26,639 nucleotides of DNA, from positions 1 through 26,639 of IMG/VR virus record IMGVR_UViG_3300045581_000055; one strand, given 5' to 3'. The translations under genes and the position numbers were made by a program. Shown here one piece after another: positions 9,312 through 26,481 of this stretch; position 1 is the first letter of the stretch, and the number at the start of each line of letters is the position of its first letter. The DNA comes from a virus. The notes under the pieces are model-generated. The model was not told the origin of the DNA. It did not search any database and saw only the letters and a program-made list of their open reading frames with translations.

Positions 9312-9661
9312 GCTGGTCTGGTTGTATTAGTTCTGGTTGTTGGTCTTGATCCTACGCCGTTATATAAAGAACCGTAGAAATCAACTGTTAGTTTTTCTCG
9401 CCCTTCTTCTTCCTCTTCCATTGATGTTGCTGCATCAATAGCTTCTTGTTCAGCAATGTCAGCTTCGGCAATTCGTGCTGCTTCTTCTGCTTTAATTCTT
9501 TCTCGCTCTGCTTGAGCTGCTGCTTCTCTTTCTTTTTCGTCCGCTTTTGCTCTTTCTCTTCGGATATCTTCTTGTTCTTGTTGATATCTTCTTTCGTCAG
9601 CAAGAAGTTGTTCTTGTTCTGCTTTGGTCATGCCACCTTGAATTGTTGGTGCGCCGCCCAT
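9308..9661 (-). CDS. 117-aa charged coiled-coil protein before portal (T7 gp7.3 position)
   Basis: The protein consists mainly of one long charged helix (about residues 12-90), rich in Glu, Gln, Arg and Ala, then a short C-terminal part with LTVDFYGSLYNGVGSRP and a Thr/Arg/Pro tail. A coiled coil is likely. It sits directly before the portal gene, where T7 has gp7.3, a small virion protein needed for tail function, and the C-terminal SLYNGVG part might play a similar role. No sequence identity can be claimed. The ATG follows GGAGG, and the stop overlaps the portal start (ATGA). Confidence 0.8.
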   Translation of the reverse strand: MGGAPTIQGGMTKAEQEQLLADERRYQQEQEDIRRERAKADEKEREAAAQAERERIKAEEAARIAEADIAEQEAIDAATSMEEEEEGREKLTVDFYGSLYNGVGSRPTTRTNTTRPA

Positions 9662-9673
9662 AAGTACCTCCTT

Positions 9674-10552: not shown

Positions 10553-10743
10553 TTTAGATTCTCCTTTTGTTGTAGTTTGACAATAGATTCTAGTTTATCT
10601 ATTAGAGAGATTTGTCCTGCTGTATATGCAGCACGACGAATAAACTCATCCGTTGTCATTGTTTCGTCGTAACGAAGGGGTTGATACAGTTCCCTTAGTA
10701 TTGGAATCCACTCTGGATTTAGATGCGGATACTTTGAGTTCAT
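10549..10743 (-). CDS. 64-aa protein overlapping the 72-aa gene
   Basis: The small acidic/aromatic protein begins MNSKYPHLNPEWIPILRELY and ends in a helix QISLIDKLESIVKLQQKENL. Its start has AAGGA about 8 nt upstream, and its stop is coupled to the 292-aa gene by ATGA. It shares 98 bp with the end of the 72-aa gene in another frame, far more than any other overlap here. A shorter version from ATG at 10659-10657 would nearly remove the overlap but lacks a ribosome-binding site. Both frames look protein-like. Function unknown. Confidence 0.65.
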   Translation of the reverse strand: MNSKYPHLNPEWIPILRELYQPLRYDETMTTDEFIRRAAYTAGQISLIDKLESIVKLQQKENLK

Positions 10744-10864
10744 TGATTTCTTCCTTCATTTTGTTTACTTCCGCAAGTAGTTCCCGCAGAAACAACGAAG
10801 TCTCTGCGGGAGTTAGTTGTACATTAGAAGTTAAACGAAGTTTAATTTGTTCTAGGCTAGCCAT
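10646..10864 (-). CDS. 72-aa coiled-coil protein of unknown function
   Basis: The protein reads MASLEQIKLRLTSN, then LTPAETSLFLRELLAEVNK and MKEEINELKVSAS, and ends in a Ser/Asn-rich tail. The middle is a predicted amphipathic, probably coiled-coil helix. It starts 3 nt after the stop of the reductase gene, with AGGA upstream. It may be the first gene of the virion block or the last of the nucleotide block. Its last 98 bp also code for the N-terminus of the 64-aa protein in another frame. Confidence 0.65.
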   Translation of the reverse strand: MASLEQIKLRLTSNVQLTPAETSLFLRELLAEVNKMKEEINELKVSASKSRVDSNTKGTVSTPSLRRNNDNG

Positions 10865-10867
10865 AAA

Positions 10868-12757: not shown

Positions 12758-12758
12758 A

Positions 12759-13283
12759 TTATACTCCTGTTGAACCAAACCCACCGCTTCCTCTAGCCGT
12801 ATTAAACACTTGCTTAACACTAACAAACTCTGGGGAAATAAAACCCATGATTAACATTTGTGCAATTCGATCTCCGTCTTTAATTGCAAAGGGTTCTTTA
12901 CCTGTGTTTTTAATAGCTACTTTAACTTCACCCCTATAGTCAGGGTCAATCAAACCAACGGCATTAGCTAAAGTAATTCCGTGCTTTGTTGCAAGTCCTG
13001 ATCGTGGCAATAGTAAAGCCATTAAATGACTGGGTAGTTCTAAAGTAATTCCAGTAGGAATAACTTTAGTTTCTTCTGGCTCTACAATAAGAAACCCTTC
13101 GTGATGTAGGTTTGCTTGGATATCGTAGGCTGCTGCTCCATCAGTTCCTTTAGTTGGAACAGAGAATCTTGAAGAAGAAATTTTAACGGTATTATTGGGA
13201 ACATAAGTATACGAGTTAACTTCGTAGTTCTTAGGGTTGGTAAACTCATTTGTATCTACATAGTAAGTATTGTTGTTATTCAT
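12759..13283 (-). CDS. dut: dUTP diphosphatase (trimeric dUTPase)
   Basis: The enzyme converts dUTP to dUMP and pyrophosphate, keeping uracil out of DNA and supplying ThyX. All five motifs are present: DGAAAYDIQA (48-57), PRSGLA (93-98), NAVGLIDPDYRGEV (107-120, catalytic D115), DGDRIAQMLI (136-145) and RGSGGFGSTG (164-173). An N-terminal extension of about 30 Asn/Tyr-rich residues precedes the core. The ATG is only about 12 nt from the predicted transcription start of the promoter-like motif upstream and has just a weak GAGA ribosome-binding site. The stop lies one base before the reductase start. Confidence 0.95.
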   Translation of the reverse strand: MNNNNTYYVDTNEFTNPKNYEVNSYTYVPNNTVKISSSRFSVPTKGTDGAAAYDIQANLHHEGFLIVEPEETKVIPTGITLELPSHLMALLLPRSGLATKHGITLANAVGLIDPDYRGEVKVAIKNTGKEPFAIKDGDRIAQMLIMGFISPEFVSVKQVFNTARGSGGFGSTGV

Positions 13284-13293
13284 GTTATATATC

Positions 13294-13306
13294 TCTATAG
13301 CCCCAA
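13294..13306 (-). promoter_or_regulatory. Putative phage RNA polymerase promoter, copy 3 (before dUTPase)
   Basis: The minus strand reads TTGGGGCTATAGA, identical to copies at 15541-15529 and 22492-22480. The CTATAG core resembles bases -5 to +1 of T7 and SP6 promoters, giving a likely start at G13295. The motif lies in the 24-nt gap between the Ig-like gene and dUTPase, so it would drive dUTPase, reductase and probably the virion genes. Confidence 0.7.
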
Positions 13307-13307
13307 T

Positions 13308-13766
13308 TTAACCTAAGCTATTCATGTCCATTCTAATAGTTGAAATATCAAAGGGAACTCTTGTATTTTCTAAAGCATCAATATTACCAAAAGTAAGATT
13401 TCCTCTATACTGTCCGTCTGCGCCTGTGTATGTTATAACAATATTCATAGTAGCACCAGGAGCTAGACAATAACGAGTGTTTGCGTTTATAGCAACTCCG
13501 TTTAGAGTAATAACGCCTGTTCCGTTTCCTGTGTTGGCTGTTACTGTCCAAGTCATACCTTGCCAACAAACAGATCCAGCACCATAGTTTGTTATAGGAA
13601 CAGTCAAAACTGCTGGATCTGCAACAAGGGATCTAGTTATAGCTACAGCAGAATTACCATTAACCGTAAAATAATTATTTTGAGGGCATCTACCAATATT
13701 ACCGTTATTTGCTGTAAATCCTAAATCGCCCATAGGCATACCAGTTCTTGCAAAAGCTTTAATCAT
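13308..13766 (-). CDS. 152-aa beta-rich, Ig-like protein of unknown function
   Basis: The start chosen is ATG at 13766-13764, which has AAAGGAG 5 nt upstream and overlaps the exonuclease stop (ATGA); the frame also runs 7 codons further upstream. The protein is rich in Thr, Asn, Gly and Val, with alternating strands: AVLTVPITNYGAGSVCW, MTWTVTANTGNGTGVITLNG, TMNIVITYTGADGQYRGNLTF. This looks like an Ig-like beta sandwich of about 100 residues, of the sort found in virion decoration or fibre proteins. There is no signal peptide. It is out of place among nucleotide and nuclease genes. Two cysteines (about 67 and 99) could pair. Function not recognised. Confidence 0.8.
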   Translation of the reverse strand: MIKAFARTGMPMGDLGFTANNGNIGRCPQNNYFTVNGNSAVAITRSLVADPAVLTVPITNYGAGSVCWQGMTWTVTANTGNGTGVITLNGVAINANTRYCLAPGATMNIVITYTGADGQYRGNLTFGNIDALENTRVPFDISTIRMDMNSLG

Positions 13767-14506
13767 TTTAACTCCTTTGGATACCAAGGTATTACTTGGT
13801 TATTCCAATCTTCTGTTCTTAAAATTCGGACGCATCTAGCTTGAGCTAAAGCATCCTCAAATGAATACTTACCCCCATCTTTGTTTGGCATTTGCTCATA
13901 CAAACTAAGAACTAAAGGGCTGTGATTAACTGGTTTGGTAGAGTCTAGTAGTTTTTTAGCCTTAGCTTGACCCATTTTCCAAACACCAGGAATATTATCA
14001 GTAACATCACCCATTATCCACTGCTTGTGGAAATTATAATCGGCTTCTTCTTTACTGGTAAAAATTACTGGATTTTCTTCTGTATCTTTCATTGGTGGTT
14101 TCCAAGACCACCCATAAACCGAATAGATATCTTTGTCAATAGTTACAGCAATTGCTTTTCCCATTGACATTTGAATACCCATTAGATCATCTGCTTCCAA
14201 ATGATCTTTAGTTTGACACTCATAACTATCTTTAATATAAGACTCAGCATAAGTTAGATTTTCGGGTGTTTGTTTTACAACATCCCTATGTGCTTTATAC
14301 TGAGGCCACCATGTTCTTCTAAAGTTTTCTGAGCGAGGACAAGAGAAAGCAACAACAACTCTTGTTACTTCTGGTGGTGTCCATTTACGAATATCATCTT
14401 TGATTCGATCTTCTAACCACTCAGAGCCTTCTTGGTCTGCCCAAAATGCAGCTCTGTAAGCAATAATGTCTCCATCTAAAACAGCTATACTAGGTTTGTT
14501 CATCAT
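13763..14506 (-). CDS. 5'-3' exonuclease (T7 gp6 / FEN-like PIN family)
   Basis: The 247-residue enzyme has the acidic metal-binding sites of the 5' nuclease family: D11 and D13 in VLDGDIIAYR, the D107 region in DHLEADDLMG, D124 and D126 in VTIDKDIYS, and GDVTDNIPGV (166-175), which leads into the helix-hairpin-helix. T7 gp6 is 300 aa, and the family removes RNA primers and degrades host DNA. It starts with a double ATG (14506 and 14503). The ribosome-binding site is weak: AGGAG is 15 nt upstream, inside the end of the 26-aa gene. Its stop overlaps the next start. Confidence 0.92.
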   Translation of the reverse strand: MMNKPSIAVLDGDIIAYRAAFWADQEGSEWLEDRIKDDIRKWTPPEVTRVVVAFSCPRSENFRRTWWPQYKAHRDVVKQTPENLTYAESYIKDSYECQTKDHLEADDLMGIQMSMGKAIAVTIDKDIYSVYGWSWKPPMKDTEENPVIFTSKEEADYNFHKQWIMGDVTDNIPGVWKMGQAKAKKLLDSTKPVNHSPLVLSLYEQMPNKDGGKYSFEDALAQARCVRILRTEDWNNQVIPWYPKELK

Positions 14507-14516
14507 AAAACACTTA

Positions 14517-14597
14517 TTAATCTCCTAAATCTATTACACCAGAACCAATTAGCAATAAAACAATTACGACAACTAAAGCAATTCCTAGTAGAATCAT
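14517..14597 (-). CDS. 26-aa single-span membrane microprotein
   Basis: A tiny gene starts with ATG at 14597-14595, overlapping the kinase stop (ATGA), and ends with TAA at 14519-14517. The product is MILLGIALVVVIVLLLIG followed by SGVIDLGD: one hydrophobic helix of about 18 residues with a short acidic tail. It exactly fills the gap between kinase and exonuclease. Single-span microproteins in phages can be lysis, inhibitor or membrane-association factors, but nothing here decides. The ATGA coupling and uninterrupted hydrophobic pattern argue against chance. Confidence 0.62.
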   Translation of the reverse strand: MILLGIALVVVIVLLLIGSGVIDLGD

Positions 14598-15322
14598 TCA
14601 GTATCTTTCTTCTTATACATATCATCAATCAGTTCTTCAATCTCCTTAAGAAGAGATTCGTGATTGATGTTTCGTCCTTGTCTGTTTGCAGAACATACTT
14701 CACATTCGCATAATACTAGACTCTCAGCGATAATATTAAACAGGATTAAAGAAAGTTGACTAAGCAATTCCACATATTTGTCCATGCTTCCATCGTTTAC
14801 AAGACGGAATTCAAACAGTTGGTCATAGTCTTTTTCACTTAGTTCTACTTTATTAGCCATTGTTTCTGATTCGTGGTTTCGCCACTCACCATTATGATCT
14901 TCTAATTGTCGAGATCCATGAGCAATAAAAATTTGTTTTGCTCCTATTTTACGACCATAAGCAACTTCGTTCATATACCGACAATCATCTATAATAATGA
15001 CTCGTTCTTTATATTTCTTTGCGTTGTTTTCTAAGTTTTCGTTTTCTTCTTTTGCCAGTTTTTCAAATGTTTTATTGAAACACTCCACCCAATAATCAGG
15101 GTTTTCTTTTCGCTTTCGTTCACCAAGATCCTGACAAAAAGCTCTGTATTGATCTGGTTTTGTTTCCTTGGATAGCCCTAGCTTTGCTGCTTCATCTTTA
15201 ATACCTTTAGCAAAAGGAACAATGACTGGCTTCATGCCCATGTTTTCTGCTATAATTTTAAGGATGTTAGCTGCCGTTGTTTTCCCAACACGGGCTTTCC
15301 CACCTAACATAATTACAATCAT
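14594..15322 (-). CDS. P-loop kinase, probable deoxynucleoside monophosphate kinase
   Basis: The 242-residue protein starts with a Walker A loop, GGKARVGKTT (7-16), in a fold start typical of nucleotide kinases. Later come RKENPDYWVECF and VIIIDDCRYMNE, which resemble the DPDYW and D.R..NE elements of phage dNMP kinases (T4 gp1 type). A helical C-terminal part with three cysteines (CECEVC) follows. It would phosphorylate dTMP and other dNMPs for DNA synthesis, which fits the neighbouring ThyX and reductase genes. The ATG has AGGAG 8 nt upstream and lies 56 bp inside the end of the 166-aa gene. Confidence 0.75.
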   Translation of the reverse strand: MIVIMLGGKARVGKTTAANILKIIAENMGMKPVIVPFAKGIKDEAAKLGLSKETKPDQYRAFCQDLGERKRKENPDYWVECFNKTFEKLAKEENENLENNAKKYKERVIIIDDCRYMNEVAYGRKIGAKQIFIAHGSRQLEDHNGEWRNHESETMANKVELSEKDYDQLFEFRLVNDGSMDKYVELLSQLSLILFNIIAESLVLCECEVCSANRQGRNINHESLLKEIEELIDDMYKKKDTE

Positions 15323-15767
15323 TTTTTAAGCTCCTATAAAGTTTAGCTGGTAGTACCCTTGTTAGGGTATCGGTGTATTTTAGTTTAAAAAGATCACAGG
15401 TATAAGTAGTGCAAACCTTTGGAGATTTGTCTGTAAACCAGCGGGTAAAAAAGAACCACCAAAAGACGGACCACGCAGACTCCTGCGTGTAATTGTCACA
15501 GTCTTCTAATATCTTTCCTACATTAGTGTCTATAGCCCCAACATAGCAACAATCTAGAAGTTTAACTTCCAGTTTGTGGAAGTTGGAAAGCTTACACATT
15601 TTCATTTTTCCCCCATTAAGAAGAACAACTGTAATATATTCGTTGTTGATCTTTAAAATTGGAGCTATATGGGTCACAGAAGAAAAAGAAACAAGTTTAA
15701 TAATTGATCCCCAAACTCCCTGTTGTTTTGAAATGTCATAGAACCCAATATAGCATTCGTATTTCAT
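15267..15767 (-). CDS. 166-aa protein, possibly a permuted NlpC/P60 (papain-like) enzyme
   Basis: The protein begins MKYECYIGFYDI and carries SFSSVTHIAPIL (His33), and later KVCTTYTCDLFKLKY (Cys118, Cys123) followed by LPAKLYRSL. A His in a 'S.THIA' strand, then a Cys at a helix start and a P..LY tail, is the order found in circularly permuted NlpC/P60 proteins of the YiiX type. Those act on amide or peptidoglycan-like bonds. This is a pattern judgement, not a firm match. It lies close to a holin-like gene, so a lysis role is possible. It overlaps the kinase by 56 bp and contains promoter motif copy 2. Confidence 0.6.
   Translation of the reverse strand: MKYECYIGFYDISKQQGVWGSIIKLVSFSSVTHIAPILKINNEYITVVLLNGGKMKMCKLSNFHKLEVKLLDCCYVGAIDTNVGKILEDCDNYTQESAWSVFWWFFFTRWFTDKSPKVCTTYTCDLFKLKYTDTLTRVLPAKLYRSLKNDCNYVRWESPCWENNGS
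15529..15541 (-). promoter_or_regulatory. Putative phage RNA polymerase promoter, copy 2 (inside the 166-aa gene)
   Basis: TTGGGGCTATAGA on the minus strand is identical to the two intergenic copies, and the flanks differ, so only these 13 bases are shared. Here the motif also encodes part of the YVGAIDT segment. It would add transcription of kinase, microprotein, exonuclease and the Ig-like gene. Confidence 0.6.
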
Positions 15768-16102
15768 GCGTTATCCCAGTTCCTAGTTTGATAATTCCAT
15801 TTATACTTGTCACCACAAGGAGAAGTAATAATTAATTCTGGTTCTTCTTTTTCTATTTCGGAAAGTCCTTGATTATCTGCTTCACTAGCGCATTGAAAAT
15901 GTTCTGTACACATTTCTTTATTACAGGAACTTTCTTCTACCCACATTCTACATGGTACTATTTGCTCAACCCATTGATTTATTTCTGCTTGGGGGTATCC
16001 ATTATCAAGTAACCATTGATTAAAGTTTTCTGGTCTATTAATATAAAATTTAGGAAAACCATACTTCCAACCAGACGGAGGATCTACATAAGTTTTATTC
16101 AT
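15764..16102 (-). CDS. 112-aa Cys/Trp-rich protein of unknown function
   Basis: The chosen start is ATG at 16102-16100, which overlaps the preceding stop by 8 nt (ATGAATAA), like many genes here. An ATG 7 codons further upstream (16123) is also open. The protein has DPPSGWKYGFPKFYI, a helix with WLLDNGYPQAEINQWVE, then four cysteines (CRMWVEESSCNKEMC and FQC), and a C-terminal CGDKYKWN. The first part resembles a small protein type I recall from other marine phages. The cysteine cluster could bind zinc. Function unknown. The stop is coupled to the next gene by ATGA. Confidence 0.72.
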   Translation of the reverse strand: MNKTYVDPPSGWKYGFPKFYINRPENFNQWLLDNGYPQAEINQWVEQIVPCRMWVEESSCNKEMCTEHFQCASEADNQGLSEIEKEEPELIITSPCGDKYKWNYQTRNWDNA

Positions 16103-16304
16103 CTTTATCTTTTCCCCATCCAAGATGTGGATATGTAGAGTTATCTCTTTGCGTTTCTAGTTTTTGAATGGTTGATTGTAGTTCTTTAATATGTGTTAGA
16201 CAAGCACCATGAATTTCTTTTGCTGTCCATCCCATACTAAATTCACTAGACTTAGGGTATTGAAGAGCGTTTTCTAGTAATTCAATAATATCTTTTGTTG
16301 TCAT
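16095..16304 (-). CDS. 69-aa helical protein of unknown function
   Basis: The protein reads MTTKDIIELLENALQYP, then FSMGWTAKEIHGACLTHIKE and a coiled-coil-like helix LQSTIQKLETQRD, and ends in a charged tail. There is no membrane segment. It overlaps the holin-like gene by ATGA at its start and the 112-aa gene by 8 nt at its end, so it is probably made together with them. No family is recognised. Confidence 0.7.
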   Translation of the reverse strand: MTTKDIIELLENALQYPKSSEFSMGWTAKEIHGACLTHIKELQSTIQKLETQRDNSTYPHLGWGKDKDE

Positions 16305-16504
16305 ACTTCTGCCTCGTTTTTAATACCAAACTTTAGCTTGACCATAGTTCTGGATACGATATACATAATACCTAGTACCGTGCCACAGATTAGAAAATAC
16401 TTTGAAAGTTCTTCATTTCCTGTTCTATTTTCTACAATACTAACTAGAACGGGAGCAATAGAAACCCAAAATTCTGATGTTTTAATACCTGTTTTAATAT
16501 CCAT
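16301..16504 (-). CDS. 67-aa two-span membrane protein, probable holin
   Basis: The protein has a KTSEFWVSIAPVLVSIV segment (residues 8-24) and a second hydrophobic segment YFLICGTVLGIMYIV (36-50), joined by a polar loop and followed by a basic/acidic tail. Small proteins with a KTSEFW start and two membrane spans are often annotated as putative holins in marine phages, as I recall. A holin would open the inner membrane at the end of infection. The gene follows the DNA polymerase by 12 nt with AAAGG upstream. No endolysin gene is certain nearby; the 166-aa protein is one candidate. Confidence 0.65.
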   Translation of the reverse strand: MDIKTGIKTSEFWVSIAPVLVSIVENRTGNEELSKYFLICGTVLGIMYIVSRTMVKLKFGIKNEAEV

Positions 16505-16516
16505 AAATAACCTTTC

Positions 16517-18223
16517 TTAGTGTGTTTCCGACCAATTAGAACCAATCTTATACTCAGCGTCAATACGCATTTTAATTTCAAGTCTTTCACCAGCTTCGGT
16601 AGCTGCGGCTTTAACAATCTTTCCTACTTCTTCGGCAATGTCTTTAGGACAAGAAAACTGAAGTTCGTCGTGAACATAAGCAATTTGTTTTACTTTATTT
16701 CCAAACTTTTTCTTTAGGTTTCTGTTTGCCAAGACCATCCAATACTTGCTAACGATTGCCCCCGATCCCTGTAGCCAAGTGTTTAGAGCCGCATGTTCGG
16801 AGCGTACAGGCACCATACGCATGTCTGGTAGCACTACTGCCCCCCACTTGGCTGCTTGAAACTTGGCTTCCTGCTGTACCTTAGCCAATGCAGGAATCTC
16901 TTTTAGAAACTTTTCTCTTAGTTTAGATCCTTCTTTTGCTGATGCGTTTACAATCTTACCAATCTTTGCATCTCCCGCACCATAAAGAAAACCATAAATA
17001 AAAACCTTTGCGTTGTTTCTTGTTGGAAGTCCCGCTGCTTTTTGGTTGTGTATGTGAATGTCTCCGTTTAGGATGATATCACCATATGCGCCTTTGTCAT
17101 ACTTGTGCATGTAATGTGCAAGCATTCTAAGTTCCAAACCACTAAGATCGCAACCAACCAGAACCTCATTAGTATCTGGTAGCCATAGTTCTCTAGCCCT
17201 ATGATCTCCAGATACTTGGGCAATGTTTGGTTGTGAGTGTGTACAACGACCAGTTGCAGCACCTTGGGCATTTACAAAACCATGTATCTTCTTATCTCTA
17301 GAAGCTTCAGCTCTTGTAATCCAGTCTTCTACTTGTCCGATTAACTTAATACAAGCAAAGTATTCCAGAAGAGCTTTTGCTTCTGGGAATTCTAAGTCTG
17401 CTAAAACAGACTCGTCAATCTTTGGATTTCCTTTGTCTGTTAGTGGTGCTTTCCATCCATATTTTTCTTCTAGTCTTTGTGCAATCTGTTGTCTAGACCC
17501 AGGATTAAATACTTCAATCTTTGGTTTTAGATCTTTACCTGTTTTTTCAGACTTACGATAATGGATTTTATCTGGAAAGATCTTACGCATTTGGTCTTCA
17601 ATCCCAACTTTTTCCATTAGTAGTTTATGGTGTAATTCATATCCATTAGTAAGATCAAAGTTAAAACCGTTGTTTGTTTGTTCCATTAGAATCTTAGATA
17701 CCATGTGTTCAAACAATACAATATTCTGATACTTCTTTTCTTCTACCCAAATTTTTTGACGCAGATAGATTTCTTTACCTAGACGCACATCTTGTTGACA
17801 GTATTGTAACATTTCATCGCTAAAGTTTTCCCATCCACCAGTATAGTCTTGCTTTGGATTGTTAAGGTAACGACCCCAAGATTCAAGACTATTATCTCCC
17901 AGTGGGTGGTTATTAATATCTGGATACATAATCTTACTAACAACAAGGGTATCCCAGTAATCACACTTAAACGATATATCTAGAATGCGCTGTAGCATAA
18001 TAATATCAAAGGATAGAATATTATGCCCGACAATTAATGTAGCTTTTTCTAGTAAAGCTTTGCATTCTTTGAGATTAAATGGAGTGAAAGAATACATCTT
18101 ATCTGTATCAATATCCACACATACCACACACCAAATAATATTTCCTTCTTTTACTGGTTGTCCTTTGGAACCAAGAGTGATTTCGTTTAGTCCGTTTGCT
18201 TCGATATCAATAACAAGTCGCAT
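16517..18223 (-). CDS. DNA polymerase, family A (T7 gp5-like) with 3'-5' exonuclease
   Basis: The 568-residue enzyme has both domains. The exonuclease shows D6 and E8 in VIDIEANGL, D73 in GHNILSFD and D145 in YCQQDVRLG. The polymerase shows motif A, VGCDLSGLELR (D359), motif B, RNNAKVFIYGFLYG (R402, K406, Y410), and motif C, YVHDEL (D519). T7 DNA polymerase is 704 aa; the distance before motif A is about 116 residues shorter here, and the thioredoxin-binding insertion of the thumb seems absent. The gene overlaps the 71-aa gene by 37 bp. It replicates phage DNA with the primase-helicase and ssDNA-binding protein. Confidence 0.96.
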   Translation of the reverse strand: MRLVIDIEANGLNEITLGSKGQPVKEGNIIWCVVCVDIDTDKMYSFTPFNLKECKALLEKATLIVGHNILSFDIIMLQRILDISFKCDYWDTLVVSKIMYPDINNHPLGDNSLESWGRYLNNPKQDYTGGWENFSDEMLQYCQQDVRLGKEIYLRQKIWVEEKKYQNIVLFEHMVSKILMEQTNNGFNFDLTNGYELHHKLLMEKVGIEDQMRKIFPDKIHYRKSEKTGKDLKPKIEVFNPGSRQQIAQRLEEKYGWKAPLTDKGNPKIDESVLADLEFPEAKALLEYFACIKLIGQVEDWITRAEASRDKKIHGFVNAQGAATGRCTHSQPNIAQVSGDHRARELWLPDTNEVLVGCDLSGLELRMLAHYMHKYDKGAYGDIILNGDIHIHNQKAAGLPTRNNAKVFIYGFLYGAGDAKIGKIVNASAKEGSKLREKFLKEIPALAKVQQEAKFQAAKWGAVVLPDMRMVPVRSEHAALNTWLQGSGAIVSKYWMVLANRNLKKKFGNKVKQIAYVHDELQFSCPKDIAEEVGKIVKAAATEAGERLEIKMRIDAEYKIGSNWSETH

Positions 18224-18402
18224 GGATTGGTGAACCGTTTATCCCTTTCTGCCAATAACTGATCTGCCATACTAGCAACCTCTTGAATAGTCATTGGCTT
18301 TTGTTTGTCTCTTGTAGTACCAGGATGTAACGCCATACTAAGAACACCAGCAGCATACATATCCCATGCTGCCATTCGCATCATAATGGCTTGCTCAAGC
18401 AT
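18187..18402 (-). CDS. 71-aa protein between primase-helicase and DNA polymerase
   Basis: The start used is ATG at 18402-18400, giving an 8-nt overlap (ATGCTTGA) with the primase stop; a longer frame to 18459 would overlap it by 65 bp. The protein begins MLEQAIMMRMAAWDMYAAGV, continues LHPGTTRDK and ends with a helix QEVASMADQLLAERDKRF and a short tail. Small helical proteins of this type between helicase and polymerase are common in T7-like marine phages. It could be a replication accessory factor, but this is only from position. Its end overlaps the polymerase start by 37 bp. Confidence 0.72.
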   Translation of the reverse strand: MLEQAIMMRMAAWDMYAAGVLSMALHPGTTRDKQKPMTIQEVASMADQLLAERDKRFTNPCDLLLISKQTD

Positions 18403-20137
18403 TGGTATCTGCAACAGGTTCAAACACAACCTGTCCCTCATCTCCAATACCAAAGTCAATCTCTTCTAGTCTACCAGACTTCCAATCGTAGAATAGAGCT
18501 GTTGCAATACCTGATTTACCTGTTAGACGATTCTTGAGAATTCTAACAAGCGTTGTGTTTGCAATCTTTTCATCTGCATTCTGACGATCACGCTCTAGTG
18601 CAATTACGGTATTAGGAACGCTAGCAAGCGCACCAGAACCCCGCAAGTCTTGTAGGGTAATACGATCACCCTCTTCGTAGGCTTTGTCTGTCTTCTTTAG
18701 CTGGGATACAATGTCAATATGGACACCAGTTCGTACTGCAAGAGATCGTAGTTCCTTCATTAGTGTATCAATAATGATACGCTCAGAGTTACCACCTTCA
18801 ATATCTTTATCATTAATACCCATCAATCCCGCAGCCGCAGCAGTAATATGATCTAGTACAATTACATCAACCTTAAGACTTACTGCCATGTACTCCATAC
18901 GAGCCAGTAGATTAGCCATTGCGTTGTTACCTAGATGATCGTAGATGTAGAAGTGAGTTCCTGCTAGCTTTTTTCTTGCTTCGGAATACTCTTCATCGCT
19001 TAGATCATCTACAAATGCAATATTAATCGGTGGCTTGCCCATCTTTGTACGCAGTTCATTCATCATCCGTGTTGCACGAATAGCCCGTACTGGTTTGTTT
19101 AGCATAAGGCTAATCATATCATCCATTGTTTCTTCTGGAGATTCTTCTAGCATGATAGCACCAACAGACCTACCCTCATCAAGATGGTGCATCATAAGTT
19201 CTCGTAAGATTGTAGACTTACCAGAACCTGTACCAGATGCCCATAGACTAATCTCTCCTGATCGTTGACCAATTAGGAATTCAGATAGACCATCAAATGG
19301 GAAGGGATATACTCGGATATTAGCAGAGCTTTCTGCGTTTGAGATAACTTGTGAGATATGTAAAATCTCATCGGGTGAATACAGTTGAGCTTCCCAGATA
19401 GCTGTAACCAAAGCTTTACTAGCTGCCTTGATAAGACATTCATTAGCGTCTTTGTAAGGTAACTTTGCAATCTTACAACGACCTGGAGGTAAGATACCAG
19501 CGATTTGTTGAACCGCTGATTGTCCTGCTTCATCGTTGTCAAAGCATAGAACAACTTCTTGATAAGAATTAATAAACTCTAGGTTATCTTTGATAGCTTT
19601 AAGGGCTGACTGCGCTCCGTTTGGTACGCTAACTACAGGCCATGTACCACCAAGTAATTGGCATACAGTCATGCAGTCAATCTCGCCTTCGGTAATCACT
19701 AGTCGCTTACCATTAGAGCTTTTCCATAGATGCTGACCAAAGAGTTCCACATTCTTACTTGAACCACGCCAAGCAAAGTTCTTTTCTGGTCCCCGTAGAT
19801 GCTGACCAATTAGTTTACCATCTTTGTAGTAATTGGCAATCTCAATATCCTTACCGTTGTAAGAAACGGTTTCATAACCAAACTGTCTGCAAGTCTTTTC
19901 ATCAATCATTCTATGACTAAGACCAATGACACTACCGCGTAGTTGTTTGAAGTCTGTCTCTTCTTTCTCTACTGTTTCCACTTGAGTTCCTTTCTTTTGC
20001 TTGCTGTAGCTGCAAGCAAAGCAATAGTAATGATCGTTATATTCTGCAAGATTGTTTCCTGAGTTGTCTGCGCCTACGCTTGCACACTTAGGACACCGAC
20101 TTCGTTTACCTGTAAATGTTGATTGATCCGTTTTCAT
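18395..20137 (-). CDS. DNA primase-helicase (T7 gp4-like)
   Basis: The 580-residue protein is close to T7 gp4 (566 aa). It has the N-terminal zinc ribbon (C15, C18, C39, C42), a TOPRIM primase domain with E150 in TEGEID and CFDNDEAG (D200, D202), and a RecA-like helicase. The helicase has Walker A GTGSGKST (302-309), Walker B-type VDVIVLDHI and a late RGSGALASVP segment. It unwinds DNA 5'-3' and makes RNA primers for the lagging strand. The start lies 32 bp inside the end of the deaminase gene. Confidence 0.96.
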   Translation of the reverse strand: MKTDQSTFTGKRSRCPKCASVGADNSGNNLAEYNDHYYCFACSYSKQKKGTQVETVEKEETDFKQLRGSVIGLSHRMIDEKTCRQFGYETVSYNGKDIEIANYYKDGKLIGQHLRGPEKNFAWRGSSKNVELFGQHLWKSSNGKRLVITEGEIDCMTVCQLLGGTWPVVSVPNGAQSALKAIKDNLEFINSYQEVVLCFDNDEAGQSAVQQIAGILPPGRCKIAKLPYKDANECLIKAASKALVTAIWEAQLYSPDEILHISQVISNAESSANIRVYPFPFDGLSEFLIGQRSGEISLWASGTGSGKSTILRELMMHHLDEGRSVGAIMLEESPEETMDDMISLMLNKPVRAIRATRMMNELRTKMGKPPINIAFVDDLSDEEYSEARKKLAGTHFYIYDHLGNNAMANLLARMEYMAVSLKVDVIVLDHITAAAAGLMGINDKDIEGGNSERIIIDTLMKELRSLAVRTGVHIDIVSQLKKTDKAYEEGDRITLQDLRGSGALASVPNTVIALERDRQNADEKIANTTLVRILKNRLTGKSGIATALFYDWKSGRLEEIDFGIGDEGQVVFEPVADTNA

Positions 20138-20474
20138 CTGAGTACACTATAGTATTAAAGATCTGTTCGCACCAAGGCATACAATACTTGCAAGGTAAAG
20201 CCATGCCAAGTTTTCCTGTCTTAGAAAACCTAAGATTAATCAGGGTAAGTTTATCTAAATCTTTGTCTTTAAGTTTGGTATAAGCATCTAGTTCTGAATG
20301 CAACCAAGGATATTTATAACCAAGCTTTACTGCTTTTGGGTGAGTCTTCCATTCATTAGTTCCAATAGCAAGCAATTCGTTTTTGCGTATAATAAGACTA
20401 ATATGTGCTTTCTCTCTAAGAATGTTTGTTGCAATCTTTTGAGAAAGTTGAACCCACTTATTGTCCAGTTTCAT
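20106..20474 (-). CDS. Zinc-dependent cytidine/dCMP deaminase-like protein
   Basis: The 122-residue protein has the zinc and catalytic motif of the cytidine deaminase superfamily: H59-S-E61 in WLHSELDAY, and C95-x2-C98 in PCKYC. It is about the length of a single-domain deaminase. In this setting it probably makes dUMP from a cytosine deoxynucleotide for ThyX, whose gene ends 17 bp into it. The substrate cannot be read from the sequence; a tRNA or free-nucleoside substrate is less likely given the neighbours. The ATG has GGAG 8 nt upstream. Confidence 0.83.
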   Translation of the reverse strand: MKLDNKWVQLSQKIATNILREKAHISLIIRKNELLAIGTNEWKTHPKAVKLGYKYPWLHSELDAYTKLKDKDLDKLTLINLRFSKTGKLGMALPCKYCMPWCEQIFNTIVYSDENGSINIYR

Positions 20475-21129
20475 TCAAGGCTCTCCAACTAATCGGGAAA
20501 TACTTAGAACAAATCTTTGATACAAGTTCGGCATAGATTCTTGCTTCAAACTGAGCATGAGAATCAGACCGTAATTGATACATGCGTGACCAAGCGTATA
20601 AACTTCCAGTCCAAATCCACTCGGTCATCATGTTCTGAGGCAATACCATTCTAGCTTGTTCTGGACAAATACCTTCTTGAATCATTCGATTATATAAACT
20701 AGTTGCGTTATCTGTCAAGGTATCAATATCTAGTTTGTAAAGATCTGACGCTGGATGTACAATTAAAGAAGAACCTTGCTTTACATTCTCTGCTTTATTC
20801 CTTAGATCCATAGGCATCCAGAAAGATGGTTCTTCGTTTACATATCTACGAGAGATTTCATTCCAAGCAAAACCAACCTGATGCTTTACAAACTGACGAG
20901 CAATAAAGATAGGTGCTTTAAAACGCATCTTAATTGTACAGTGGGCAAAAGGACTCCAATGATTGTGCTTTGCTAGATAATTAATAAGTCTTTCATTTTG
21001 ATTGACCGTAAAAAGATCGGCAGATTTATTCATAGATACTCTAGCTGCGTCACAAACAGCATCGTCATTACCCATATGATCTTCATACATTACAAGATCT
21101 TGTTCAGAACCATTATAATACTTTGGCAT
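20458..21129 (-). CDS. thyX: Flavin-dependent thymidylate synthase ThyX
   Basis: The 223-residue enzyme makes dTMP from dUMP using FAD and methylene-tetrahydrofolate. Family marks include HNHWSPFAHCTIKMRFKAPI (55-74), ARQFVKHQVGFAWNEISRRY (77-96) and the later QARMVLPQNMMTEWIWTGSL segment. The usual RHR-x7-S signature is replaced by KHQ with eight residues before S93, a variant I recall from other phage ThyX proteins. The ATG has AAGGAGG upstream and is the first gene after a terminator. It overlaps the deaminase that probably feeds it. Confidence 0.95.
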   Translation of the reverse strand: MPKYYNGSEQDLVMYEDHMGNDDAVCDAARVSMNKSADLFTVNQNERLINYLAKHNHWSPFAHCTIKMRFKAPIFIARQFVKHQVGFAWNEISRRYVNEEPSFWMPMDLRNKAENVKQGSSLIVHPASDLYKLDIDTLTDNATSLYNRMIQEGICPEQARMVLPQNMMTEWIWTGSLYAWSRMYQLRSDSHAQFEARIYAELVSKICSKYFPISWRALNETGQ

Positions 21130-21142
21130 ATATCCTCCTTAG

Positions 21143-21177
21143 AAAAAAACCATCTATAGTATTCCTACCATAGATGG
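21143..21177 (-). terminator. Intrinsic terminator before thyX
   Basis: On the minus strand CCATCTAT (21177-21170) pairs with ATAGATGG (21157-21150). The stem extends by a G.U wobble, G-C, T-A and A-T to a GGAA loop, and is followed by seven T (21149-21143). It has the same design as the terminator at 4397-4433: 12 bp, a G.U at the ninth pair and a GNRA loop. It lies between the 67-aa gene and thyX. Confidence 0.88.
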
Positions 21178-21203
21178 CTGATTGTTGCGTTTGACTGGGA
21201 TTT

Positions 21204-21407
21204 TTATGCGTTATCTTTGGGAGTCTTGTAGAAAGGACGAACCTTTTCTGCAACACGGGTGTTCCAAACAATCTCATTTTCTGCATCAGTGTATCCAGTT
21301 GAATACTCTGGAAGATGCTGTTCGGGAATATCGTTTGAAATACCTACTCCATTATAGCGATCCTTACGACCCATTACATAATACATACCTGGCTTATAGC
21401 TTGTCAT
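21204..21407 (-). CDS. 67-aa protein of unknown function downstream of rusA
   Basis: The start used is ATG at 21407-21405, with GAGG 7 nt upstream and a 14-nt overlap with the rusA stop; the open frame runs further upstream but overlaps rusA more. The protein begins MTSYKPGMYYVMGRKDRYNG and ends VAEKVRPFYKTPKDNA, with many Tyr, Arg and Lys. It is the last gene before the terminator. I do not recognise it. Confidence 0.68.
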   Translation of the reverse strand: MTSYKPGMYYVMGRKDRYNGVGISNDIPEQHLPEYSTGYTDAENEIVWNTRVAEKVRPFYKTPKDNA

Positions 21408-21774
21408 TGTTAACCTCAATTGTAAAATAACCTTCTTCGTTTTCCTCTGCCCATTGCTTAGTAGCATACACAGAGATGATTTGGGAATCGTCTTCCCACA
21501 TTATTCCATTCAAAACATCTAGCACTGCTTTGGTGTAGTTGTCTATATCTGGTTTAGGATAATCTAATTTAGTTGTCTTTGGTCTAGTCACATAAACCTC
21601 AATCACGACTGCCAATGGTCCTAGTAGCGGTTTAAACTCAGACCCTAGAATATCCTGTATCTTTTCTTTTGCCTGTTCTCTGAAGTCTTTATACGGACCA
21701 GAGTAGTAAGCTCCCCACTTACCTACTCTTGGTCTACTTGCAGCAACAGGCGGGATATCAAACCTTCGTATCAA
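21394..21774 (-). CDS. rusA: RusA-type Holliday junction resolvase
   Basis: The 126-residue protein has the RusA core: RPRVGKWGAYY near the start, YPKPDIDNYTKAVLDVLNG (72-90, with D76, D78 and K82) and WEDDSQI (93-99), which match the metal-binding Asp and catalytic Lys pattern of RusA. It cuts four-way DNA junctions before packaging. It stands where T7 uses endonuclease I (gp3). The only early start is TTG at 21774-21772, which overlaps the ssDNA-binding stop (TTGA) and has no clear ribosome-binding site, so it probably depends on coupling. Confidence 0.9.
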   Translation of the reverse strand: MIRRFDIPPVAASRPRVGKWGAYYSGPYKDFREQAKEKIQDILGSEFKPLLGPLAVVIEVYVTRPKTTKLDYPKPDIDNYTKAVLDVLNGIMWEDDSQIISVYATKQWAEENEEGYFTIEVNNDKL

Positions 21775-22280
21775 AACGGAAGTTCTTCATCCGTAGTGGG
21801 AATATCTTTACTTGGTGAAGGTGAAGAAACAAACCCACCCTCAATAGAAGTAAAGCCACCACTAGATGAACCGCTACGCTCACCCTTATGTACGATCTGA
21901 ACCCCGTTAAGGTAGAGGCTCAGGCTCTTGTCCCTAGACAGTACGACAGGCTGTAGCCGTAGCTTCACCCTGTCACCACCCATAGCCACCACCTCGCTAG
22001 GCTTGGCTTGGGAGTCAAAACAGGGAAACGAACCCTTCTCAATATGGCTCTTAGTCTTAGCCTTAAGAGTAGTTACCCCGTCCTTTTCCTTTAGACCGTT
22101 GATCTTCTTTGCTCCACTCTTCTTAAGAATTTCTTGAAGCTTCTTATTAAGTGGCTCATCTACGACTACCGTAATGTTGTGGTTTGCAGAAGCCTCTCCA
22201 AACTCAACATCAGGTTTCGATAGATTTGACCAACGACAATCCACAACTTCCGTAACAAACCCTGGAATTTTATCAGCCAT
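21771..22280 (-). CDS. Single-stranded DNA-binding protein (T7 gp2.5-like)
   Basis: The 169-residue protein has an OB-fold-like beta-rich body (IPGFVTEVVDCRWSNLSKP, VKLRLQPVVLS, SLYLNGVQIVHKG), then a flexible Ser/Gly-rich linker, and ends in the acidic-aromatic tail TDEELPF. T7 gp2.5 (232 aa) ends in DEDF, used for contact with polymerase and helicase. It coats ssDNA and organises the replisome. It overlaps the 59-aa gene by 8 nt (ATGGCTGA) and rusA by 4. Confidence 0.87.
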   Translation of the reverse strand: MADKIPGFVTEVVDCRWSNLSKPDVEFGEASANHNITVVVDEPLNKKLQEILKKSGAKKINGLKEKDGVTTLKAKTKSHIEKGSFPCFDSQAKPSEVVAMGGDRVKLRLQPVVLSRDKSLSLYLNGVQIVHKGERSGSSSGGFTSIEGGFVSSPSPSKDIPTTDEELPF

Positions 22281-22452
22281 TAATTGATTCTCCTTCTACT
22301 GGTGTAGTATTAGCTGCTTCGATCTTGGCTTCAAGATCTGCAATGTTTGTATTAAGATCGGAAACTAGACTCTGTGTATAGTCTCTAATCCGAATTAAAT
22401 AATTCTTAACTTCATTACCTTCTACAATAATAGTTGCTTTATTTTCTGGCAT
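22273..22452 (-). CDS. 59-aa acidic coiled-coil protein
   Basis: A gene too short for many finders starts with ATG at 22452-22450, with AAAGGAG 7 nt upstream, and ends with TGA at 22275-22273, overlapping the ssDNA-binding start by 8 nt. The protein reads MPENKATIIVEGNEVKNYLI, then a helix with RDYTQSLVSDLNTNIADLEA and an acidic tail. The middle looks like a short coiled coil. It is the first gene after promoter motif copy 1. Function unknown. Confidence 0.72.
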   Translation of the reverse strand: MPENKATIIVEGNEVKNYLIRIRDYTQSLVSDLNTNIADLEAKIEAANTTPVEGESING

Positions 22453-22479
22453 TTGCTTCTCCTTTCTGACGAGAAATCA

Positions 22480-22492
22480 TCTATAGCCCCAA
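22480..22492 (-). promoter_or_regulatory. Putative phage RNA polymerase promoter, copy 1 (before the replication region)
   Basis: TTGGGGCTATAGA on the minus strand is identical to the copies at 15541-15529 and 13306-13294. It lies in the 47-nt gap between the 87-aa and 59-aa genes. By analogy with T7 and SP6 the start would be G22481, giving a leader of about 29 nt with a good ribosome-binding site. It would drive ssDNA-binding protein, rusA and the 67-aa gene up to the terminator at 21143. Confidence 0.75.
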
Positions 22493-22499
22493 CCCAAAA

Positions 22500-22763
22500 T
22501 TAAGGCCAATCCTTGTAATAAACCGAACCAATAGAAACGAGATTGAATTTATAATTATTGGGAACAACCTCGACGGCATTAACTCGGTCCAGTTCTAGAA
22601 TCTTTCCAGCTACTTCGTCAATGTCTGGTAGATCCCATAGATCTTTCACAAAAGTATGAAGATCGTTATTTGATTCTTTAGTAACTACTTCTGGATACTG
22701 TCTCCAGATTCTAATATCAAAGTTCTTTGTGCTGGTCTTAATAATATATTCACGAATATTCAT
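22500..22763 (-). CDS. 87-aa protein of unknown function
   Basis: The protein begins MNIREYIIKTSTKNFDIRIW, has an acidic middle (TFVKDLWDLPDIDEVAGKI) and a beta-rich end (NAVEVVPNNYKFNLVSIG). It looks like a small alpha/beta fold. The ATG overlaps the preceding stop (ATGA). It is the last gene before promoter motif copy 1. It could be an early host-takeover protein by position, but nothing in the sequence says so. Confidence 0.7.
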   Translation of the reverse strand: MNIREYIIKTSTKNFDIRIWRQYPEVVTKESNNDLHTFVKDLWDLPDIDEVAGKILELDRVNAVEVVPNNYKFNLVSIGSVYYKDWP

Positions 22764-22936
22764 AAGTCACACTCAATATGTCTAATCTCTACAGATGATT
22801 GTCCATCTGGAAATTTATTCAACATATCACAAATAGTAATAATAAGTTTATCTGGTGATACAATCTTCATCTCATCTACATTATAGATGTATTGATCGTT
22901 AGAAAACTTTCTAAGTTTAACTTCATATAACTTCAT
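22760..22936 (-). CDS. 58-aa protein of unknown function
   Basis: The start used is ATG at 22936-22934, which overlaps the phosphoesterase stop (ATGA); the frame is open for 16 more codons upstream but would overlap that gene by 52 bp. The protein reads MKLYEVKLRKFSNDQYIYNV, then MKIVSPDKLIITICDMLNKF and a short acidic end. It has some resemblance in pattern to the following 87-aa protein (mixed beta strands and one helix), which could mean a related fold, but identity is low by eye. Confidence 0.68.
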   Translation of the reverse strand: MKLYEVKLRKFSNDQYIYNVDEMKIVSPDKLIITICDMLNKFPDGQSSVEIRHIECDL

Positions 22937-23595
22937 AGATTCATAAGCTCCAAATAAGGATGCCCGTCTTTTACAACACCACAACTAAGCACAGGTTTCT
23001 TAAGATAGTTAGAACCATAACGCATAGCAAGATGGTTTCTATCTACTCCAGATCCAACATTCATACCGAAGAACCTAGTGTTAGGACCAACAACCCAGTT
23101 GATACCAGCAACACTATGTGTATGACCCATAACCACAGACATGGCTCTCATTTTAGCAGCATTAAATGCTGGGTATAAAGAAGAACAACCAGTTCCGTGA
23201 GTATAGAATACATCATCAATAGTGTGACCCCAATCCCAAGTCCAATTGGGTGTATCGTACAGTTCATTCCAGTTCTTTAAATAAACATCTGGAATACCCG
23301 CATCAGCTGCAAGTCTAGCTACACGCTCATCGTGATTGCCAATACAAATTTTCATTGTAGGAAACACATCATACCACTTATTAATGCACTTGATTGCTGC
23401 TTTAAACTCATCCATAGCAGCTGGGTGTTCTGGGTGTTTCTTATGAAATGAAATGCAATGATGATCTACAACATCTCCGATATGCACAAACTCATCGCAT
23501 TTGTATTTAGTGGCTACACTTTTTACAAACTTAAGATAGTCTGAATGCACGGCGGGAAAGTGTGTATCACCGATTACGAGAACGGTTTTTGACAT
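22933..23595 (-). CDS. Calcineurin-like metallophosphoesterase
   Basis: The 220-residue enzyme has the full two-metal motif set: GDTHFP (D10, H12), GDVVDHH (D41), GNHDE (N87, H88), H133 in YTHGTG, and GHTHS (H158, H160). The family includes phage protein phosphatases and nucleases, and the substrate is not shown by the sequence. In the early region near the RNA polymerase it may act on host nucleotides, RNA or phosphoproteins. It overlaps the 75-aa gene before it by 29 bp and is coupled to the next gene by ATGA. Confidence 0.9.
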   Translation of the reverse strand: MSKTVLVIGDTHFPAVHSDYLKFVKSVATKYKCDEFVHIGDVVDHHCISFHKKHPEHPAAMDEFKAAIKCINKWYDVFPTMKICIGNHDERVARLAADAGIPDVYLKNWNELYDTPNWTWDWGHTIDDVFYTHGTGCSSLYPAFNAAKMRAMSVVMGHTHSVAGINWVVGPNTRFFGMNVGSGVDRNHLAMRYGSNYLKKPVLSCGVVKDGHPYLELMNL

Positions 23596-24015: not shown

Positions 24016-26481
24016 TCATTGGAAGAAATAAGGAGACTCCTTTACATCTTTGATTTCAAGAGTTCCTATTGCTGGTATTGCTGGAAGTTCAACTCTTAAA
24101 AGAGATTCTAGGTTTTCTTTTAACAACTCTAGTTGATTATCTTTATGAATCTCAAAGAATTGTTCTGTCGTTATACTCCTTAGCGCAGGAATGTATGGAG
24201 CGTATGTTCCATACGAGTCGTGAACAAAAGAAAGTTCTTCTATTTTAACGGCTAGAAGACCAGCGATAACAGACCACATATGTGATGCGTCTAAACTGTG
24301 AATAAAATTAGGAGCGATTGCATTATTAACAGACTCTGAATCAATCCGTTCTTTATCTGCATTACCAAAATGCAACTCCTTCATATTGAAAAGCTTTGCT
24401 ACTGAGCGTCTAGTTTGAATCTCATAGTATTGGTGAACTACTTTAAAACCACACGGCGTAGTCCATTCAAGATTTTTACCAAGATCACTAGCAATATCAG
24501 CGACTTCCTTCAACCACTTCTTACCTTCGTTAGCTGATTCTAAACAGCCACGCAAGGCTTGGTCAATGTAGGTCGCCAACTCCATGACAGCAGCACTAAG
24601 TCTTTCTTTGTTTACCCAGTCTAAATGACCATCACTACGACAATACTTTCTAATCCCATAGAATGTAACACCATAAGGATCTGTCATTACCGCTCTTTTT
24701 ACAACAGATCTACCTATTTCACCTTCCCAGTGTGTAAGGAATATATTACACCACTCGTTTTCTTTTGCGTCTTCTACCATCATATTTGTACAACGGTCAG
24801 CCACAAACGAATATACATCTTGTGGTTCACCCGTATCAAATAAATTAACCATTTTGCCAATGGCTTTATCTTTCATAATAGCCGCCCAGTGTTGGATACC
24901 ATTACACGATCCATCCATTTGTACAGGCAACTGAGTCAAACCATCTGTTCTAAATAATTCAAATATAGCAGCAAGTCTTTGAAATGTAGTATTCTTTTTC
25001 TTCTTATCTGAACACCAAAACTTTCGCGTATCGTATGGGTTATCATGGATAGCTTTAAGCATAACCATATTATCATCAACCCATTTAATTCTTTCAGCAA
25101 AAGTAATCTTATCCTGGTCAAAAAGATTTGCAATATGAATCTTTAACCAGTACCTACCTTCATCTGTCTGCTTGATAGGCGTTGCAAAATAAATCAACGC
25201 TTTGTCAAAATCACAAGACTGCGGACTAAGTAATTCACAAGCCGTATAAGCGCGACCTCTGAAGTCGCAAGTATACACATGATAAAAGAACTTATGCTTT
25301 ATCAAATCCTTAGCTAACCGCAGACGAACAAGCATACGAGAACGCAAATGTTCTTCTTTGTACCAAGCAGCATATGCTTCTTCCTTTCTAGCTTTCCAGT
25401 GCATTCGTTCTTCTTTAGTTCCTTGCTCTGGATAAGGTTCTGCGAAATCAAATGCAGTGAAGTCATATGCTGGTAGGTTTCCATCCTTAGTATTGTTCTT
25501 AAACAATCCCTCCATCACTTCATATACTTTGTTATTTATAGCCCACTCTGTTTGCATAAGAGCATTAAGACCATTAACAACAGTAGTAGAAGGTGTGGAA
25601 CCTTTTTGTTTTTTGGCTTGTTCTTCATCTTCAAATACATCCCTAAAGCGTTGAACAACTGGCTTTCTTACATACGCAAGTAAGTGACCACCAGAAGAAT
25701 CTATTGTATGATTCACGGGCGGTACAATCATCGGCCTATAAATCATCGCTGCTTTTGTAATCATATCTGAGTGAGCTTTATTCAACTCACAAAGAATCTC
25801 TTCATTAAAACTAACCAATACTTTTTCTCGCCATCCACGATTGCTATAAGTACGAACATTAGTTAGTTTGATTATACCACTTGTCTCTGCTATGCGTAAC
25901 ATGTGATGCCCAAAGTCTTCCTTTTGTTTTCGGTTAAACTTTGAACGATCTAAACATCCCATCTTCTTAGCAAAGGCTACACATCTTTTAGTTGTCCAAG
26001 ACTTAAGATACTGAGATTGAGTAAGCCAGTCCTTTTTAAAATCTTGCTTTGCTTTTTGATACCCAATGATATCTATAACCATATGGGAAATCTCAAGCGC
26101 AACATGTTGTGCTGTTGGTAAAGGAAGTTCTTTAATATCCAGATCTCTAGTCCAAATGTTAGAACCAAACCACTCAATCATAATAGTACGAAGAGTGATA
26201 TCTGCCATCTTCCTAGCACCAACAGCAAACAAAGGATACGCCCATTCGGGTGTTCGTTTAGATTTAGATACATTATCTATCCACTCCTGATAAGCAGGCT
26301 CTAGATAAGCTATGCACTTATCTAGAAGTTCCTGCTCAGGAATACCTTCATCTGGGCTTACATCATAAACATCCCAATACTTTTGTTCACTGGCTAAAAG
26401 CATATCTTCTTCAAGAGTTACTTGAAGATTCTTTCGTCTTTCTTGTTCTTCTTTAGAAAGATTGTTCCAATTAGTTAACAA
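24016..26481 (-). CDS. Single-subunit DNA-dependent RNA polymerase (T7 gp1-like), TTG start
   Basis: The 821-residue enzyme (T7: 883) transcribes phage genes from phage promoters. Key residues are in place: D523 in MDGSCNGIQHW (T7 D537), K595 and Y603 in RSVVKRAVMTDPYG (T7 K631, Y639), D755 in VHDSYGT (T7 D812), plus CDFRGRAYTACELLSPQ (405-421). The start is TTG at 26481-26479, with GGAGG 6 nt upstream; the next ATG is residue 27, so TTG is favoured. It ends in SPYFFQ, with a C-terminal aromatic pair as in T7. The TTG may limit how much is made. Its likely target is the motif at 22480, 15529 and 13294. Confidence 0.97.
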   Translation of the reverse strand: MLTNWNNLSKEEQERRKNLQVTLEEDMLLASEQKYWDVYDVSPDEGIPEQELLDKCIAYLEPAYQEWIDNVSKSKRTPEWAYPLFAVGARKMADITLRTIMIEWFGSNIWTRDLDIKELPLPTAQHVALEISHMVIDIIGYQKAKQDFKKDWLTQSQYLKSWTTKRCVAFAKKMGCLDRSKFNRKQKEDFGHHMLRIAETSGIIKLTNVRTYSNRGWREKVLVSFNEEILCELNKAHSDMITKAAMIYRPMIVPPVNHTIDSSGGHLLAYVRKPVVQRFRDVFEDEEQAKKQKGSTPSTTVVNGLNALMQTEWAINNKVYEVMEGLFKNNTKDGNLPAYDFTAFDFAEPYPEQGTKEERMHWKARKEEAYAAWYKEEHLRSRMLVRLRLAKDLIKHKFFYHVYTCDFRGRAYTACELLSPQSCDFDKALIYFATPIKQTDEGRYWLKIHIANLFDQDKITFAERIKWVDDNMVMLKAIHDNPYDTRKFWCSDKKKKNTTFQRLAAIFELFRTDGLTQLPVQMDGSCNGIQHWAAIMKDKAIGKMVNLFDTGEPQDVYSFVADRCTNMMVEDAKENEWCNIFLTHWEGEIGRSVVKRAVMTDPYGVTFYGIRKYCRSDGHLDWVNKERLSAAVMELATYIDQALRGCLESANEGKKWLKEVADIASDLGKNLEWTTPCGFKVVHQYYEIQTRRSVAKLFNMKELHFGNADKERIDSESVNNAIAPNFIHSLDASHMWSVIAGLLAVKIEELSFVHDSYGTYAPYIPALRSITTEQFFEIHKDNQLELLKENLESLLRVELPAIPAIGTLEIKDVKESPYFFQ

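Follow-up and report, generated by a model that had tools for sequence, protein, structure and literature searches.

The 13-mer TTGGGGCTATAGA occurs in three exact copies in this window (the whole 26,639-nt stretch that was analysed, which is 26.6 kb from the record of an uncultured virus). The copies are very probably middle/late promoters from which the phage transcribes with a single-subunit T7-type RNA polymerase of its own. Sequence comparison places the putative promoters in a known kind of element, the T7-class promoter, within which they form a new specificity class. The genes run along the minus strand in the order T7-like RNA polymerase, metallophosphoesterase, SSB, RusA, ThyX, primase/helicase, DNA polymerase, a 166-aa ORF, dNMP kinase, exonuclease, dUTPase, ribonucleotide reductase (RNR), portal, scaffold, major capsid protein and tail proteins. 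A T7-like RNA polymerase, DNA polymerase, primase/helicase and T7-like head and tail genes, all on one strand, place the phage in the Autographiviridae. Close kinship with a named genus was not seen, as all RNA polymerase matches among 50,697 phage records were below 60% identity (the top-ranked ones were about 27% identical).

All three copies, which had been described in the initial annotation as exact and on the minus strand, were re-found, and, as had also been stated, there was no further exact copy on either strand of the window (zero on the plus strand). The minus strand is the strand of the window's genes, and the three copies share that direction. Two of them do lie in short intergenic gaps as annotated: copy 1 in the gap 22453-22499, between the metallophosphoesterase-side genes and the SSB operon, and copy 3 in the gap 13284-13307 before dUTPase, with a predicted leader of 12 nt. 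Copy 2 is within the 166-aa ORF (15267-15767), about 208 nt before the dNMP-kinase gene. The features are collected in Table 1.

Table 1. Predicted promoters, the genes next to them and the polymerase features of the window
Feature	Position	Strand	Details
Promoter copy 1	22478..22500	minus	-19 to +4 in T7 register; 13-mer 22492-22480; predicted +1 G 22481
Promoter copy 2	15527..15549	minus	13-mer 15541-15529; predicted +1 G 15530
Promoter copy 3	13292..13314	minus	13-mer 13306-13294; predicted +1 G 13295
First genes downstream of copy 1: 59-aa ORF and gp2.5-like SSB	21771..22452	minus	PHROG 112, E 1.2e-11
dNMP kinase, first complete gene downstream of copy 2	14594..15322	minus	PHROG 139, E 3.4e-20
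dUTPase, first gene downstream of copy 3, then ribonucleotide reductase	12759..13283	minus	PHROG 135, E 2e-51
Single-subunit T7-like RNA polymerase, 821 aa, presumed promoter reader	24016..26481	minus	PHROG 414, E 7.9e-153
Specificity-loop segment, residues 676-706 (~T7 730-762)	24364..24456	minus	Alignment; includes K696, M700
Predicted intercalating beta-hairpin, residues 204-225 (T7 about 228-245)	25807..25872	minus	Model strands E204-213/E216-225 and alignment

We observed that TTGGGGCTATAGA is the sole 13-mer other than simple polypyrimidine repeats with three copies in the window, while its Markov expectation is 0.0007 copies. The earlier judgement of chance as a very unlikely source of three matches thus stands for this particular motif; it is too strong for 13-mers at large, since some 13-mer reached three copies in 2-18% of the Markov-shuffled windows, depending on the order of the model. 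By itself, the triplication is suggestive, short of conclusive. Because of the shuffling result, the motif was then sought in relatives.

A polymerase search yielded contigs whose RNA polymerases are 85%, 75% and 59-63% identical to that of the window, and a profile search with the window polymerase added more relatives, down to 48% identity; an RNAP-profile search of the genome contigs returned no relatives. The closest large relative, G001 (RNA polymerase 85% identical, 64.8 kb), has six exact copies of TTGGGGCTATAGA, all forward and co-directional, and zero reversed. Contigs with a polymerase 58-63% identical mostly carry TTGGGGCTANNGA, also co-directional. Promoter-like sites are common to dozens of uncultured T7-like phage contigs, and the motif is present in almost all of those whose polymerase shares 58% identity or more with that of the window; the longest motif-bearing contigs are 60-68 kb. 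Exceptions were found in the 58-63% group, namely L016, whose SSB junction carries GTGGAGCTACTGA, and L067/L071 (see below), and a few contigs have one-mismatch versions only, for example CTGGGGCTACTGA or TTGGAGCTACTGA. The motif is absent from contigs with a polymerase 48-52% identical.

The core TTGGGGCTA occurred in 32 coding-strand copies and one opposite-strand copy in eight contigs (some of them mutually related), where 1.7 would be expected from permuted, composition-matched 9-mers. Eighteen of the 32 lie outside large ORFs, a space that is only 11-20% of each contig. Conservation in relatives and a bias between strands had been named as checks in the initial annotation, and both came out in favour of the motif. 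The relatives, with the six copies in G001 and the strand-biased core, settle that the repeat is real. An exact 14-mer scan of all viral contigs gave at least 120 stretches in many kinds of contig, a 14-mer being too short to inform in so large a collection. Some core matches in relatives are coding or tRNA coincidences, such as in-gene matches in G024 with C at +1, and TTGGGGCTATCGT in the G005 group was excluded as the 5' end of a tRNA-Glu gene; this gene (L027 10651-10724 and equivalents) starts GGGGCTATCGTC, a chance mimic of the motif. In L079 (near 5608-5633) and L084 (near 14141-14166), the promoter block is part of an inverted repeat, CCCCAATAAGCCCTATAGTTGGGG, which gives both-strand matches in a few relatives.

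We also placed the window proteins on six relatives (G001, G005, G011, G015, G024 and L071). The metallophosphoesterase/SSB junction has a site in the window and in all six, and the junction before dUTPase has one in all except G005. From the end of the primase region to dNMP kinase, near the DNA-polymerase/dNMP-kinase boundary, there is a site in all compared except L071. In G001, G005 and G011, additional sites follow a giant ORF and also occur in the early region, upstream of the polymerase; in G015 and in G024, a single site lies upstream of the polymerase. A site upstream of the polymerase gene would allow positive feedback, which has been proposed for LUZ100 with its promoter upstream of the polymerase gene (PMC10134795). 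The window does not include the region upstream of its polymerase and so contains only three sites, where five or six would be expected. The giant ORF has 4148 aa (3580 aa in G005) and lies at 8708-20000 and onward in L022 and at 28708-41154 in G001; the phages with this ORF and with an 1815-aa ORF (L022 3208-8655) are T7-like and 60-68 kb in size. Searches of these large ORFs against Pfam and PHROG were negative (over 3764 of the 4148 aa of the one and the 1815 aa of the other).

Copy 2, the in-gene copy, is exact at the same place in L004/L005/L006. The 166-aa ORF shares 55% nucleotide identity with that of L006, and 33 of the 62 codons for shared residues differ; however, the seven codons of copy 2 (TAT GTT GGG GCT ATA GAC ACT) are all identical, for which we roughly estimate a chance of 0.5% at that rate. 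Protein constraint alone would account for the amino acids; it does not account for third positions that stayed the same, and copy 2 is conserved beyond coding need.

The anatomy of the promoter was profiled with 49 distinct site clusters aligned on the core, where TTGGGGCTA was the selection criterion and its perfection is no evidence. Conservation spans about -19 to +4 in the T7 register and stops beyond. The positions -19/-18 are C, -16 to -13 is AT-rich (A or T at -15 in 49/49 clusters and at -14 in 48/49), and the block from -12 to -6 reads GTTGGGG, with G at -12 in 42 of the 49. CTA follows at -5 to -3, -2 is variable and -1 is A, T or G. The base at +1 is a purine in 46 clusters (41 G, 5 A) and +2 is A in 41, so that the start is mostly GA. 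The +1 purine, the AT-rich segment and the borders at -19 and +4 uphold the annotated register, with CTATAG at -5 to +1 as in T7 and SP6. Judged from the alignment, the profile is that of a T7 promoter, for which an AT-rich stretch at -17 to -13, a specificity block at -11 to -7 and unwinding at -4 to -1 have been described (PMC10138996).

Like the T7/T3/SP6 class of the Autographiviridae, the sites are about 23 bp long, with an AT-rich upstream element within -17 to -13, a specificity block at -12 to -6, a conserved CTA at -5 to -3 and a purine at +1. They occur in several co-directional copies before gene groups, and a cognate single-subunit polymerase with a specificity loop is encoded in the same genome. 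In L076, CTATAGAAG resembles the SP6 start region, by what we take to be the SP6 initial sequence. The block itself is unlike those of T7, T3 and SP6, as had been noticed: it is GTTGGGG, whereas T7 has CGACTCA. The C-rich -19/-18 is also an extra in comparison to T7, and the genomes are 60-68 kb instead of the about 40 kb of the class. The SP6 promoter core is present in primers (PMC9596486).

Other known promoters share part of these properties. The VSW-3 promoter TTAATTGGGCCACCTATA (PMC9624206) has TTGGG, an AT-rich upstream part and CTATA before +1, but its TTGGG is separated from the start by three more bases, with CCAC between TTGGG and CTATA. The Syn5 promoter ATTGGGCACCCGTAA (PMC3950665) has TTGGG and few copies per genome; it differs in having no CTATA and another spacing, and its polymerase is 23% identical. 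In LUZ100 and other orthogonal T7-like sets, there is likewise a distinct motif per polymerase clade (PMC10134795, PMC10138996), and LUZ100 too has a promoter upstream of the polymerase gene, although its polymerase is of another lineage (28% identical). We found no published case of a GTTGGGG block, and a full-text search for TTGGGGCTA with 'phage' gave only unrelated papers among the matches listed. The initial annotation had suggested a distinct promoter class, and sequence comparison (relatives, profile, specificity loop and the paired change described below) supports it.

The window polymerase is about 24-25% identical to that of T7, and it keeps all of the T7 catalytic residues D537, K631, Y639, H811 and D812. 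An AlphaFold model built from 36 sequences (pLDDT 85.7) matches T7 RNA polymerase structures with an E of 1e-38 and is of low confidence in part of the specificity loop (residues 701-706 below 50); an earlier model from 9 sequences was discarded (pLDDT 47). Relatives that are 60-85% identical overall have 27-29 of the 31 loop-segment residues identical, while named phages have only 4-8 in common. N748, R756 and Q758 of T7, which with R746 we take to be promoter-reading residues, are V, K and L in the window polymerase, and R746 is kept. A loop that is nearly invariant among motif-bearing relatives, and that changed together with the block in L067/L071, backs the proposed tie between motif and polymerase.

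The L067/L071 polymerases are nested in the TTGGGG clade as sister to L072 (support 100/97). These two contigs have no TTGGGGCTA; instead, ATGTAGCTATAGA is present at both syntenic sites examined, with ATGTAG in place of TTGGGG. At the SSB junction, L067/L071 read CCCAATAA-ATGTAG-CTATAGATAG and L072 reads CCCAATAG-TTGGGG-CTATGGATAG, while at the dUTPase junction L071 reads CCGAATAT-ATGTAG-CTATAGATAAG and its sister G023 CCCAATAG-TTGGGG-CTACTGAAGA. The outer parts were kept and the specificity block was changed identically at two separate places. We observed that 305 polymerase columns are invariant in the 50 TTGGGG-clade rows and that five of them differ in L071. Two of the five changes, K696R and M700T, are in the specificity loop, and the remaining three (L384M, F425L and L784I) are outside it.

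This is likely a natural specificity switch, in which the loop (K696R/M700T) and the promoters at both sites were re-matched together, deeper branches carrying further variants (TTGGGTA types). The two contigs are near-identical and represent a single evolutionary event, with two distinct sites, which makes the joint change of block and loop a correlation. TTGGGG-clade sites vary at -11, -10 and -7 (for example TTGGAG, TCGGGG, CTGGGG), and no variation was seen at -8. Because the clade tolerates changes at those three positions, the decisive base of the switch may be -8 (G to T).

The alternative closest to this reading keeps the promoter but moves the RNA start to a point after GATA, four bases downstream, which would put TTGGGG at -15 to -10, similar to the TTGGG at -14 to -10 in Syn5 (ATTGGGCACCCGTAA|G, PMC3950665) and VSW-3 (TTAATTGGGCCACCTATA|G, PMC9624206). 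The GATA after the core is indeed partly conserved. However, a start there would fall on a purine in only 69% of the clusters (a pyrimidine in 15/49), against the 46 of 49 of the T7 register, with which the AT-rich element and the borders at -19 and +4 agree without a gap. The polymerase was also placed outside the Syn5/VSW-3 group in the tree, although long branches make this placement unsure. We consider the downstream start unlikely; with the start placed where the +1 purine test favours it, TTGGG is at -11 to -7, which is not the Syn5/VSW-3 specificity.

Apart from the start point, repeats with unrelated flanks could be the directional site of any other phage protein (a replication origin, a repressor operator or a packaging signal) and no promoter at all. 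This is very unlikely, as the sites are always oriented with transcription and stand before gene groups, their layout is T7-class and the block changed together with the specificity loop. The paired change is what a polymerase-read promoter would predict, and it is hard to explain for the site of an unrelated protein. A host sigma-70 promoter or -10 box is slightly less probable still: the TATAGA of the window's copies does look like a -10 hexamer, but relatives conserve TTGGGGCTA and not TATA (CTACTGA, CTAATGA, CTAAAGA), and the sigma-70-like matches listed for 12800-23000 all fall at other places than the copies. Chance or coding coincidence could be argued from the shuffled windows and from the one copy within a gene. 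With sequence, place and orientation conserved over dozens of contigs, we regard it as the least probable of all.

Under the preferred reading, promoters of the phage polymerase in the T7 register, the polymerase would hold the AT-rich segment at -16 to -13, its specificity loop would read GTTGGGG (-12 to -6) in the major groove, and the DNA would be opened around CTANN (-5 to -1). RNA would begin with a purine, usually as GA, and each copy would give one co-directional transcript: the SSB/replication operon, the dNMP-kinase/exonuclease segment, and the dUTPase/RNR/virion genes. We infer the RNA start at the sites, its making by the window polymerase and the assignment of residues to bases. 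The promoter-polymerase pair, from an uncultured, deep-branching T7-type lineage, is predicted to be orthogonal to T7 and would be a useful tool. The switched sub-lineage offers a natural experiment on changes of specificity that a polymerase undergoes jointly with all its promoters and without loss of function, and it involves two named residues and a small base change.

An unbiased k-mer search for a promoter in the 52%-identity group (L095-L102) gave nothing convincing. Contigs at 48-50% polymerase identity have TTGGGT-type candidates in the same scaffold. L113 has four copies of the candidate promoter AATA(A/G)TTGGGTAA(A/T)GGAG (at 656, 9953, 13750 and 21032), L122/L117 have the candidates AGTTGGGTATTGTAGA and CCCAAAGTTGGGTATAGCGATAG (in L122 at 3704, 19554 and 21250), and L111 has the candidate CTAAGGTTGGGTATATAG before the polymerase. 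In a sister lineage, L119 carries GAATCCTACCAAAAGA four times (at 402, 456, 3728 and 12939) as a candidate promoter, and the specificity loop of this lineage reads RRSFATLFNRKELIF. We regard the TTGGGT-type and L119 repeats as leads.

The family profile of the polymerase scored 278 bits over 219-787 against the yeast mitochondrial RNA polymerase (6ymv) and 273 bits over 4-811 against T7 RNA polymerase, the former match being at least as good. The polymerase family may inform on the origin of mitochondrial polymerases.
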